Positions 30,744 to 38,537 of a stretch of 64,000 nt of DNA are shown here, one piece after another. Under the pieces are notes generated by a model, which worked only from the letters and a program-made list of their open reading frames with translations, searched no databases and was not told the DNA's origin. Numbering within the stretch: position 1 is the stretch's first letter; every line of letters starts with the position of its first letter. The translations under genes and the position numbers were made by a program. Location of the stretch: NCBI GenBank assembly GCA_903831575.1, contig CAIKYB010000044.1, positions 1 through 64,000 on the forward strand, read 5' to 3'. The DNA comes from an uncultured Bacteroidota bacterium (lineage in GTDB: Bacteria > Bacteroidota > Bacteroidia > Chitinophagales > Chitinophagaceae).

Positions 30744-31181
30744 ATGATTGCAGTAAAATATCCTGATAAGAAACCTTCGATTGCTATTAAAGATGGTACA
30801 GAAAAGATCTTTTGTTTAAGCAGAAAAAAATGGTTGGTGCTGACTCCTGAAGAGTGGGTTAGACAAAATTTTTTATTGTACTTAATAGAAATATTAAAAT
30901 ATCCGATTTCTTTGATTGCAGTTGAAAAACAGATTTCTGTAGGGGAAGTAAAAAAGCGGTTTGATATCGTAGTATTTGACAACTGCGCATTACCCATCAT
31001 TTTGATAGAATGCAAGGAAATGGACATCAACTTAACCCCTTCAGTTTTACAGCAGGCATTGAATTACCATAGTAGTTTCCAGTCTCAGTATATTATCATT
31101 ACCAATGGGCTTCATACCATTGGTTTTGAAAACAAGGGGAGTCATATAGAAGAAATTCATGAATTGGTGGCATTTCAATAG
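30744..31181 (+). CDS. HsdR N-terminal-like (HSDR_N, PD-(D/E)XK) domain protein
   Basis: [26 protein letters not shown]...[25 protein letters not shown]. Confidence 0.8.
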
Positions 31182-34957: not shown

Positions 34958-35449
34958 ATGGTACAGTTTAAAGAAACAAGTCTGGCAAAAGTGAAAGAGA
35001 TTATTGCTCGTTATCCGAGTGGTAAACAAAAGAGTGCCTTATTGCCCGTTCTGCATTTAGCGCAAGTTGAATTTGACGGATGGTTAGATGTTCCTGTAAT
35101 GGATTATGTTGCTGGCTTGCTGAATATTGAGCCAATCGAAGTGTATGAGGTTGCAAGTTTTTACAGCATGTACAATTTAAAGCCTGTTGGAAAATTTGTA
35201 TTCGAAGTTTGTCAAACAGGTCCTTGTATGCTTAACGGCAGCGATGATATTATTGATTACATCAAACAAAAATTAAGCATTGGAGTTGGCGAAACAACTG
35301 CTGATGGATTATTTACTTTGAAAACAGTAGAATGTTTGGGTGCTTGCGGTTATGCACCTTTGATGCAGTTTGGAAAAACGTATCGCGAACATTTAACCAA
35401 ACAAAAAGTAGATACTATTATTGAAGAGTGTAGAGCAAAAGCGAATTAA
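34958..35449 (+). CDS. nuoE: NADH-quinone oxidoreductase subunit E
   Basis: IARYPSGKQKSALLPVLHLAQ...EVYEVASFYSMYNLKPVGKF...CQTGPCML...ECLGACGYAPLMQ. Confidence 0.95.
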   Translation: MVQFKETSLAKVKEIIARYPSGKQKSALLPVLHLAQVEFDGWLDVPVMDYVAGLLNIEPIEVYEVASFYSMYNLKPVGKFVFEVCQTGPCMLNGSDDIIDYIKQKLSIGVGETTADGLFTLKTVECLGACGYAPLMQFGKTYREHLTKQKVDTIIEECRAKAN

Positions 35450-35453
35450 TATA

Positions 35454-36803
35454 ATGGGAAGAAAATTATTATTAGAAAAACAACATGTAGAAGGTATTCG
35501 TCATTACGATGTGTATCGCCGTGAAGGCGGTTATCGTAGTGTGGAGAAGGCATTGAAGATGCAACCAAATGACATAGTGGAGGAAGTGAAAAAAAGCGGC
35601 TTAAGAGGTCGTGGTGGTGCTGGATTCCCAACTGGTATGAAGTGGAGTTTTTTAGCAAAGCCTGATGGCGTTCCCCGTTATTTAGTTTGCAATGCAGATG
35701 AAAGTGAACCAGGTACTTTTAAAGACAGGTATTTAATGGAATTCATTCCACATATTTTAATTGAAGGAATGATTGTGGCATCATATGCGTTAGGCAGCAA
35801 CGTTAGTTACATTTATATCCGCGGTGAATATGATTGGATTACTGATATTTTAGATCAGGCAATTGCTGAAGCCAAACAAAATGGCTGGTTAGGAAAAAAT
35901 ATACAAGGAAGTGGATTTGATTGCGAAATGTATGTTCAGCGTGGAGCAGGTGCTTATATCTGTGGAGAAGAAACAGCTTTATTGGAATCATTGGAAGGAA
36001 AAAGAGGCAACCCCAGGATTAAACCTCCATTCCCAGCTATTAAAGGATTATGGGGATGTCCAACAGTAGTGAATAATGTAGAAACCTTAGCTGCAGTAGT
36101 TCCTATTATTAATGAAGGTGCTGAAGAATATGCAAAAATTGGCGTGGGTAAATCAACTGGTACCAAATTGATTTCTGCATGTGGAAATATTAATAAACCA
36201 GGTATCTATGAAATAGACATGACTATTTCTGTGGAAGAGTTTATTTATAGTGATGAATATTGTGGCGGCATTCCAAATGGAAAGAAATTAAAAGCTTGTA
36301 TTCCTGGAGGATCATCTGTTCCAATTTTGCCAGCTAATTTATTATTGACTACAGCCAAAGGGGAAAAGAGATTAATGAATTATGAGAGTTTAAGCGATGG
36401 CGGATTTGCCTCAGGAAGTATGATGGGTTCTGGTGGATTTATCGTTTTGGATGAAGACCAGTGTATTGTAAGACATACCTATACTTTGGCGAGATTTTAT
36501 CGTCATGAGAGTTGCGGACAATGTAGTCCTTGCAGAGAAGGAACCGGCTGGATGGAAAAAATATTATTAAGTATTGAAAAGGGAAAGGGGAAGTTGAGTG
36601 ATATTGATTTGCTTTGGGATATTCAAAGAAAGATTGAAGGGAATACGATTTGCCCATTGGGAGATGCTGCGGCTTGGCCGGTGGCAGCTGCAATTAGACA
36701 TTTCCGTGATGAGTTTGAATGGCATGTGAATAATCCTGAAAAGTGTTTGACAGAAAATTTTGGTTTGAGGCATTATGCGGATGCGATTCATGTGCCGGTG
36801 TAG
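35454..36803 (+). CDS. nuoF: NADH-quinone oxidoreductase subunit F
   Basis: GLRGRGGAGFPTGMKWSF...CNADESEPGTFKDRYLME...GAGAYICGEETALLESLEGKRGNPR...CGQCSPCREGTGW. Confidence 0.97.
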   Translation: MGRKLLLEKQHVEGIRHYDVYRREGGYRSVEKALKMQPNDIVEEVKKSGLRGRGGAGFPTGMKWSFLAKPDGVPRYLVCNADESEPGTFKDRYLMEFIPHILIEGMIVASYALGSNVSYIYIRGEYDWITDILDQAIAEAKQNGWLGKNIQGSGFDCEMYVQRGAGAYICGEETALLESLEGKRGNPRIKPPFPAIKGLWGCPTVVNNVETLAAVVPIINEGAEEYAKIGVGKSTGTKLISACGNINKPGIYEIDMTISVEEFIYSDEYCGGIPNGKKLKACIPGGSSVPILPANLLLTTAKGEKRLMNYESLSDGGFASGSMMGSGGFIVLDEDQCIVRHTYTLARFYRHESCGQCSPCREGTGWMEKILLSIEKGKGKLSDIDLLWDIQRKIEGNTICPLGDAAAWPVAAAIRHFRDEFEWHVNNPEKCLTENFGLRHYADAIHVPV

Positions 36804-36832
36804 TTTCACGCTAGGTACGCAAAGGAGCAAAG
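36804..36832 (+). repeat. Left inverted repeat of GxxExxY cassette
   Basis: TTTCACGCTAGGTACGCAAAGGAGCAAAG, 22/29 ungapped match to the reverse complement of 37277-37305; begins immediately after the nuoF stop. Confidence 0.6.
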
Positions 36833-36886
36833 TTTATTGTATTGATTTGATTTCATGCAAGGAGCAAAGTTGATTAAGTTTTGTAA

Positions 36887-37273
36887 ATGCTAAGTATGAG
36901 AGAGAACGAGATTTCGAAAATAGTATTTGAGTTGTGTTTGATGATTCATAAAAAGTATGGCCCAGGTTTATTTGAAAGTGTTTATGAGGAAATTATCTGT
37001 TTTGAGTTGCATAAACTAGATATTTCTTTTACTCGTCAGCAAGGAATACCGCTGATACATGAAGAGATAAAAATGGATGTAGGATTCAGAGCAGATGTGA
37101 TTATTGAAAATAAAGTTATACTTGAGTTGAAGTCAGTTGAAGTTTTGTCACCGCTTCATCATAAACAACTGTTGACTTATTTAAAACTGACTGATTTGAA
37201 ATTGGGTTTGCTAATTAATTTCAATGTGTCATTGTTGAAAGATGGCATTCATAGAATTGCAAATAAATTATAG
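36887..37273 (+). CDS. GxxExxY family protein (PD-(D/E)XK nuclease-like)
   Basis: KYGPGLFESVYEEIICFEL (GxxExxY); DVGFRADVIIENKVILELKSVE (D...ExK); LLTYLKLTDLKLGLLINFN. Confidence 0.9.
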   Translation: MLSMRENEISKIVFELCLMIHKKYGPGLFESVYEEIICFELHKLDISFTRQQGIPLIHEEIKMDVGFRADVIIENKVILELKSVEVLSPLHHKQLLTYLKLTDLKLGLLINFNVSLLKDGIHRIANKL

Positions 37274-37276
37274 CGC

Positions 37277-37305
37277 CATTGCTTCGTTGCGAGCTTTGCG
37301 TGAAA
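37277..37305 (-). repeat. Right inverted repeat copy A of GxxExxY cassette
   Basis: Reverse complement TTTCACGCAAAGCTCGCAACGAAGCAATG. Confidence 0.6.
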
Positions 37306-37327
37306 AATTGATAAGAGTACATAAAAA

Positions 37328-37360
37328 TGTCGTGATTTTTAAAAGTTGACATTCACGACA
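37328..37360. repeat. Inverted repeat between the two right-end repeats
   Basis: tgtcgtga (37328-37335) / tcacgaca (37353-37360), perfect 8-bp stem. Confidence 0.6.
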
Positions 37361-37364
37361 TAAT

Positions 37365-37420
37365 AAATAAATTATAGCGTCATTGCTTCATTGCGAGCTT
37401 TGCGTGAAAAATTGATAAGA
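37365..37420. repeat. Near-identical direct copy of 37261-37316, containing right inverted repeat copy B
   Basis: aaataaattatagcgYcattgcttcRttgcgagctttgcgtgaaaaattgataaga at 37261 and 37365 (104-bp period). Confidence 0.85.
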
Positions 37421-37430
37421 AAACACAATA

Positions 37431-38537
37431 ATGGAAGTTGAAATAAACACAATTAAAGTAACCATCGACAACATCACTATTGATGTTGCACCTGGTACAA
37501 CTATCCTTAATGCCGCGAGGCAAATAGGAGGAGATGTAACGCCTCCGGCTATGTGCTATTACAGCAAGCTTGAAGGAAGTGGCGGCAAATGCCGTACTTG
37601 TTTGGTGGAAGTAGCTGCTGGTTCAACGGCTGATCCTCGTCCAATGCCAAAATTGGTTGCAAGTTGCCGCACAGGTGTGATGGATGGAATGGTTGTAAAA
37701 AATATTACCAGCGAAAAAGTGACTGATGCAAGAAATGGCGTGGTGGAATTTTTATTATTAAATCATCCATTGGATTGTCCTATTTGTGATCAGGCTGGCG
37801 AATGTCATTTGCAAGATTTAGGTTACGAACATGGTAAAGAAGGAACTCGTTACCAGTTTGCCCGCAGAACTTTTAAGAAAGAAGATATTGGACCTTATAT
37901 ACAGTTACACATGACAAGATGTATTCTTTGTTATCGTTGTACGTATGTAGCCGATCAAATTACAGATAAGCGTGTACACGGTATCATTGATAGAGGCGAC
38001 CACGCTGCCATATCAACATATATTTCAAAAGCCATCGACAATGATTTTAGTGGAAATATGATTGATGTTTGTCCGGTTGGTGCTTTAACAGATAAAACTT
38101 TCCGATTTAAAAATAGGGTTTGGTTTACAAAGCCGGTAGATGCCCATCGCAATTGTACCACTCCTGGTTGTTGTGGAAAAGCAACATTATGGTTAAGAGG
38201 CGAAGAAGTATTCAGGGTTACTGCAAGAAAAGATGAGTGGGGAGAAGTGCAGAGTTATGATGGTAAGCCAGGATGGATTTGCAATACTTGCAGATTTGAA
38301 ACTAAAAAAACGGAGTCGTGGACAATAGAAGGAGTAACGAAAATTAGCCGTCACTCTGTTATTGGATTAAATAAATATCAAACACTGGAAATGCCAAAAG
38401 AAACAGTGAAAGAAGTGATGAATGGCATTGAACCTAAATTGTTGATGGATATTCACAGCGTAAGTGGCGTCAATAATCCAAAGCTGCATTTAAGCGAAAT
38501 TGAAGGACCGGCAAAATCAAGTGATTTTAAAAATTAA
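37431..38537 (+). CDS. nuoG: NADH-quinone oxidoreductase subunit G, short form lacking molybdopterin domain
   Basis: ILNAARQIGGDVTPPAMCYYSKLEGSGGKCRTCLVEV...HPLDCPICDQAGECHLQDLGYEHG; 368 aa. Confidence 0.92.
   Translation: MEVEINTIKVTIDNITIDVAPGTTILNAARQIGGDVTPPAMCYYSKLEGSGGKCRTCLVEVAAGSTADPRPMPKLVASCRTGVMDGMVVKNITSEKVTDARNGVVEFLLLNHPLDCPICDQAGECHLQDLGYEHGKEGTRYQFARRTFKKEDIGPYIQLHMTRCILCYRCTYVADQITDKRVHGIIDRGDHAAISTYISKAIDNDFSGNMIDVCPVGALTDKTFRFKNRVWFTKPVDAHRNCTTPGCCGKATLWLRGEEVFRVTARKDEWGEVQSYDGKPGWICNTCRFETKKTESWTIEGVTKISRHSVIGLNKYQTLEMPKETVKEVMNGIEPKLLMDIHSVSGVNNPKLHLSEIEGPAKSSDFKN

Follow-up and report, generated by a model that had tools for sequence, protein, structure and literature searches.

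A GxxExxY gene between iterated inverted ends at the nuoF/nuoG junction of a Chitinophagaceae bacterium is a probable selfish element

The window analysed here, a stretch of 64,000 nucleotides from an uncultured Bacteroidota bacterium, raises the question of why an otherwise ordinary row of nuo genes carries an open reading frame of 128 codons that belongs to the GxxExxY family. An earlier note made from these letters placed this gene between nuoF and nuoG and took it for a foreign gene, part of a mobile unit with inverted ends. The ORF and the TIGR04256 and PF13366 profiles confirm the gene and its position; it is foreign in the sense that many relatives have no GxxExxY gene at nuoF/nuoG, and in no further sense. 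The explanation that we favour, with moderate confidence, is that positions 36804-37305 form a selfish element of roughly 0.5 kb, whose own nuclease would recognise its iterated ends.

The element adjoins nuoF (35421-36803, + strand), a host gene taken from the ORF list and used as the probe of the junction survey. Its left end, or outer arm, TTTCACGCTAGGTACGCAAAGGAGCAAAG, occupies 36804-36832 on the + strand and starts, as the earlier note had read it, at the first base after the nuoF stop codon, which finishes at 36803. A truncated second copy of this end, TTTCATGCAAGGAGCAAAGTTGATT, lies 37 bp downstream of the first (36851-36875, + strand; repeat families D3/D4, spacing 37). The GxxExxY gene was delimited at 36887-37273 on the + strand; since its homologues open with 'M-x-E-N-E', the true start is more likely the ATG at 36896. 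After the gene stop, the expected inverted counterpart was recovered by repeat and consensus matches at 37277-37305 (− strand), identical to the left end at 22 of 29 positions. The boundaries of the unit are shown by comparison with other loci, at the level of sequence.

A second inverted right end (37381-37409, − strand) follows 104 bp beyond the first, 21 nt before the ATG of nuoG, the host gene of the right flank (37431-38537, + strand; ORF list and homologues), in agreement with the earlier description. This copy is part of a tandem duplicate on the + strand: segments 37228-37329 and 37332-37433 (family D1) are 82% identical over 102 nt and make up a repeat of 102-104 bp. Since the duplicate includes the decayed last codons of the gene (..ANKL-stop), it represents a duplicated gene tail plus an end. 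The earlier note offered a second event or a recombination scar as the origin of the extra right end; this is corrected here to a tandem duplication with a decayed gene tail, and not clearly a second insertion. The 8-bp inverted repeat noticed in the spacer is indeed present, around 37328 and 37354, but inside the decayed duplicate, and was given no weight.

This is the only GxxExxY gene of the 2.44-Mb host genome, whose nuoG relatives are Ferruginibacter-like Chitinophagaceae. Taken alone, the locus is a degenerate, worn example, with an arm score of 12.0, narrowly below the cut-off of 13 used in the survey described below. The end consensus first proposed, TTTCACGC, has 3 matches in the window against 0.00 expected, a count made with a consensus derived from those same matches. 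In an independent test, 9 end matches at no more than 3 mismatches were found in the rest of the genome, against 0 for the reversed control; these copies are solitary, unpaired and without a neighbouring GxxExxY gene. Elsewhere in the window, a small stand-alone HSDR_N_2 gene of 145 aa, similar to the N terminus of type I restriction proteins, is located at 30744-31181.

The encoded protein is a clear member of its family, which is described merely as a protein of unknown function (TIGR04256, E 1.2e-37 and 128.8 bits versus a curated cut-off of 35; PF13366, PDDEXK_3, E 4.8e-36). Profiles, motif and fold model predict a Cas4/RecB-like PD-(D/E)XK nuclease. In an alignment of 71 sequences, the eponymous residues G27, E30 and Y33 are invariant; so are D70 and K82, which together with E30 and the nearly invariant E80, Q94 and Y98 compose the motif E..D..ExK..QxxxY. 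The AlphaFold (AF2) model has a pLDDT of 96, and the nearest solved folds retrieved by Foldseek, all weak matches with a TM of about 0.5, are Cas4 SSO0001 (4ic1, E 1e-3), LHK-Exo and lambda exonuclease. The predicted protein would thus be like the Cas4, lambda-exonuclease and RecB nucleases in fold and motif, but would differ from them as a minimal core of about 128 aa. Sequence search of the PDB returned no relatives of the GxxExxY protein, and the PADLOC defence models gave no match to the one in the window. For GxxExxY genes of the nuo site dN/dS is about 0.06-0.08, which shows, as far as sequence comparison goes, that the protein is under selection.

An entire RecQ helicase (DEAD, Helicase_C, RQC and HRDC; L333:1715-4363), at a locus without arms, was also seen to bear at its N terminus a GxxExxY domain whose nuclease motif is intact; judging by their 883-aa frames, L331 and L332 carry the same fusion, all within one family-level group (f41). 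This fusion links the domain to DNA processing. The conserved catalytic residues, the confident fold model, the low dN/dS and the RecQ fusion together point to GxxExxY as a probable active DNA nuclease. Matches to the family are widespread, occurring in 39 of 80 Bacteroidota genomes across the phylum, with up to 12 per genome. In the literature searched, with preprints and most subscription papers outside its scope, we found no description of arms or mobility for this family and no published GxxExxY gene-plus-ends element.

To extend the observation beyond the window, GxxExxY genes were gathered from 60 related genomes, giving 98 loci; most of the genomes compared are MAGs. For each gene, the 300 nt upstream were aligned with the reverse complement of the 300 nt downstream, and a score of at least 13 was taken as the cut-off. 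Such arms were found at 66% of the 98 loci; among 444 control ORFs the share was 5.4%, and with swapped flanks it was 8%. With the same cut-off, a phylum-wide set gave 65% of 48 GxxExxY loci versus 6% of 32 controls; about a third of GxxExxY genes are without clear arms. The comparison shows an association of the ends with the gene, and the proposal of a mobile unit that landed in nuo is supported and generalises to other GxxExxY loci. That GxxExxY loci so far exceed the controls in both sets stands against the view that the window gene is an ordinary, vertically inherited operon gene whose repeats are unrelated filler, operators or terminators for instance. That view draws on the facts that iterated repeats are common in the intergenic regions of these genomes and that the nuo-site copies form nearly one clade.

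The arms themselves are tandem arrays of a short word. The 7-nt word CRCNDAK occurs 1.44 times per arm versus 0.07 in shuffled arms, and its copies are spaced 8-10 nt and confined to one strand. The word varies by locus, with CGCAAAG, CACAAAG, CGCAGAT, CACGAAT, CACATAG, CGGGAAG and others being found; that of the window locus is CGCAAAG-like. The exact consensus TTTCACGC is valid only for the clade of the window locus; other GxxExxY clades display the same architecture with different words. Likeness of arms was examined in one set of loci sharing a site, those at nuo, where the two arms of a single locus are more alike (mean 18.5) than left arms taken from different loci (13.7).

Terminal inverted repeats, degenerate at the window locus, are shared by the GxxExxY family with insertion sequences and DDE transposons. 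No target-site duplication was detected among the loci (2.33 versus 2.28 +/- 0.16 in permutations), and therefore the unit is not a standard cut-and-paste transposon. Assignment to insertion sequences was rejected on this ground and on its gene content, the only ORF of the unit being GxxExxY, with no transposase gene.

The outline of the unit also matches that of the Coxiella intervening sequence (IVS), which measures roughly 0.43 kb and has inverted ends and one small ORF (PMC4990558). One could imagine from this likeness an element acting at the RNA level, with arms that pair and RNase III excising the gene from the nuo mRNA, and it agrees with such a scheme that a four-helix-bundle family (Pfam 23S_rRNA_IVP) is found at the same nuoF|nuoG junction. 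On the other hand, arm differences at 81 loci comprise 129 G-U-compatible and 126 A-C type changes, with no bias on the transcript strand; RNA pairing of GxxExxY arms is therefore not under visible selection. Moreover, no examined locus lies in rRNA. We consider the RNA-level scheme very unlikely. Identity with a 23S rRNA IVS was likewise rejected for the window unit, which lies between protein genes and whose arms are without RNA-stem signal.

The word carried by the ends follows the clade of the protein. Among copies from different genomes and non-homologous sites, arm similarity climbs with protein identity, and a correlation as strong as the observed one arose in 0 of 300 permutations. Pairs share an arm in 41-57% of cases at 60% protein identity or more, and in 0.5-1.7% of cases below 40%. 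Within one genome, an arm is common to 1.25% of the pairs of GxxExxY copies. This match of arm and protein, together with the rarity of sharing within a genome, indicates that gene and ends travel together and that the host does not determine the word. For instance, L022 is 80-84% identical to L070 and L034 and has CGGGAAG ends in common with them, and their neighbouring genes differ. Similarly, L075 and L080, at a preT|preA-like site as judged by flanking proteins, group with the nuo-site copies, and the end class of the window recurs at both. From these cases we infer that the gene-plus-ends unit moves between sites. Another GxxExxY clade, with TGTCTGAA-type ends, was seen in or beside apparent type I restriction operons (L021, L025, L027, L031, L057), and the restriction-operon-like flanks (hsdM/hsdS/hsdR) of this clade span several families.

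Ends are also present on their own. Genome-wide counts made by pattern searches gave, for ends of the CGCAAAG class, 67 copies in G029, 15 in G016, 13 in G000, 9 in G047, 8 in G005 and none in most other genomes. G016, G005 and G011 contain ends of this class and no GxxExxY gene; G000 has one such gene. Single ends in G000, G029 and G016 form a unit of about 45 bp, unpaired and often in tandem. Gene-less palindromic units, composed of a left and a right end, were seen in tandem beside the GxxExxY gene at L019 and L035, and only there.

A solitary end may be what is left of an element, or a copy that spread in trans. The latter possibility leads to a scheme in which GxxExxY is a cargo or a stabiliser, and the ends are moved by a RAYT, an IS transposase or host recombination. 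The excess of gene-less ends over genes in G029, G000 and G016 and the short, unpaired, often tandem form of the solitary unit argue for it. The arms match the GxxExxY clade, however, and the genomes richest in the CGCAGAT word, G013 first and then G055, as well as G008, hold GxxExxY genes from the clade with this word. Solitary ends can, besides, be remnants, as is seen at L146, where only the last GxxExxY codons and the right end remain. We regard movement of the ends by other factors as unlikely, and the earlier suggestion of mobilisation in trans is weakly supported: unpaired ends do exist in genomes without GxxExxY, but loss of the gene would leave the same trace.

Like REP/RAYT systems, the GxxExxY ends are small dispersed intergenic repeats tied to a single-gene family; they differ in being asymmetric word arrays rather than palindromes, with a PD-(D/E)XK protein in place of an HUH/Y1 one. 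Mobilisation by RAYT is not supported in this genome, both Y1 genes of which are flanked by other repeats with no such ends nearby. These Y1/RAYT-type genes (L351 and L352; G000:C34 and G000:C31) have repeats of their own, TAGCCCACGGTTTAAACCGTGGGCTA and CAATCCCATCGGGATGAAATTATTCT.

The junction that holds the window unit was then compared in 77 distinct relatives. It is empty in 29 of them and occupied by GxxExxY in 14, by a four-helix-bundle gene (PF05635) in 14 and by an AAA_21 ATPase in 7, while the others have remnants or other inserts. Occupancy is therefore patchy, rather than constant with non-repetitive flanks across related genera. Isolates exist in both states, since the junction is empty in Ferruginibacter paludis CECT 8366 (L167) and occupied in Terrimonas pollutisoli H1YJ31 (L193); the genomes compared include no two nearly identical strains that differ cleanly in having and lacking the insert. 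At L131, the GxxExxY cassette adjoins an apparent left-over arm of a four-helix-bundle unit. This turnover, which the comparison shows, makes nuoF|nuoG an insertion hot spot, as judged from sequence. The ATPases at this junction are AAA_21/AAA_15 proteins of AbiEii/OLD-like type with 330-376 aa (L151, L158, L162, L172, L173, L174, L182); at L158 and L173, a single CGCAAAG-type end precedes the ATPase gene. One locus of the survey, L123, comes from a record titled Streptomyces griseus (a MAG), yet its nuo locus is of Chitinophagaceae (93% NuoG identity), and the bin is likely mislabelled.

Mapped on the nuoG tree, the presence of GxxExxY at nuoF|nuoG requires 14 changes, against a shuffled mean of 14.0, and the starred branches alone force 8. 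On the GxxExxY tree, the nuo-site genes form nearly one clade, with 3 changes versus 13.4 when shuffled. A single clade for them is not rejected (p 0.16), whereas the AU test rejects congruence with nuoG (p 0.008), imposed by grouping the six GxxExxY genes that come from one nuoG clade. Vertical descent accompanied by losses and repeated entry into the same gap therefore both contribute.

The same trees could be read in favour of a homing-type, free-standing nuclease: it would cut empty junctions of the nuoF|nuoG kind, recombination would copy its gene into them, so that one site is entered again in different species, and the arms would be secondary. Near-unity of the nuo-site genes despite their patchiness on the nuoG tree would suit it, as would the habit of other GxxExxY clades to favour one site within a genus; the conflict with the nuoG history is compatible with homing and not specific to it. 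However, vertical inheritance with many losses likewise yields one clade per site. Related GxxExxY copies with the same arms are found at unrelated sites, unrelated four-helix-bundle and ATPase genes occupy the same junction, and homing leaves the clade-following arms unexplained. We accordingly give this possibility little credence.

Loci with arms lie between two co-oriented genes in 46 of 65 cases. In 61% of these co-oriented cases the left end is at most 10 nt from the upstream stop codon, versus 3.8% for uniform intergenic insertion. With the element subtracted, the junction has a median length of 18.5 nt, versus 74 nt for other co-directional gaps. We infer that the surviving insertions are those which are harmless to genes and transcribed with the operon. 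This position hard against stop codons, the patchy occupancy with its remnants and the arm-clade match across unrelated sites all contradict the ordinary operon gene, a reading that is extremely improbable and, on sequence comparison, effectively refuted.

Small ORFs between inverted arms are common to the GxxExxY unit and to the 23S rRNA IVS/PF05635 elements, and the PF05635 and GxxExxY families both occupy nuoF|nuoG. The four-helix-bundle genes are related to the ORFs of 23S rRNA intervening sequences. Iterated inverted arms scoring at least 13 flank 30 of 45 four-helix-bundle loci. These arms have a sharp 7-nt period (self-match 0.67 versus 0.38 shuffled) and contain 6% C, and they were observed at L231-L260 and at nuoF|nuoG loci such as L145, L153 and L169. 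The GxxExxY arms, in contrast, peak at a period of 8-10 nt, and the two proteins are unrelated. Thus, the period goes with the protein family and the word with the protein clade. The word-clade link of the four-helix-bundle genes (1 of 300 permutations, few close pairs) is weaker than that of GxxExxY.

Iterated 7-nt intergenic words near start and stop codons have been described as TAACTGA heptamer direct repeats, Bacteroidetes included (MacGregor 2015, PMC4679880). The description covers a single word, without a gene enclosed by inverted arms and without an identified protein; their 7-nt period resembles that of the four-helix-bundle arms, which we mention as a lead only.

The favoured explanation, a selfish element recognised by its own nuclease, can be laid out as follows. 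The element would consist of one GxxExxY gene between two inverted ends in which the CRCNDAK word recurs every 8-10 nt, and its sole protein would be the 128-aa Cas4/RecB-like nuclease. This protein would recognise the word arrays that enclose its gene and cut or trim the DNA there, and host repair would complete the move by carrying gene and ends to new places. Insertions would persist where they fall into the very short gap that separates a stop codon from the following operon gene, leaving host genes intact, and the GxxExxY gene would be transcribed along with the host operon, here nuo. The element may later be lost, leaving single ends able to multiply in tandem. More tentatively, it is possible, though rather doubtful, that GxxExxY belongs to a general class of selfish genes with word-iterated ends, which would owe their mobility to one tiny protein alone, its family setting the period (8-10 nt for GxxExxY, 7 nt for the four-helix bundle) and its clade setting the word. 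Such a class would amount to a natural protein-to-DNA-word recognition code.

The link between clade and word offers the GxxExxY proteins a direct and testable function, namely recognition and processing of that word. The ends may also lie behind much of the unusual intergenic repetition seen in these genomes, and the general class, if it holds, would account for many short intergenic repeats of Bacteroidota. Furthermore, comparison of GxxExxY with the four-helix-bundle family suggests that two unrelated proteins live in the same manner within the same gaps of operons; this has a bearing on the intervening sequences of 23S rRNA, themselves still without explanation.
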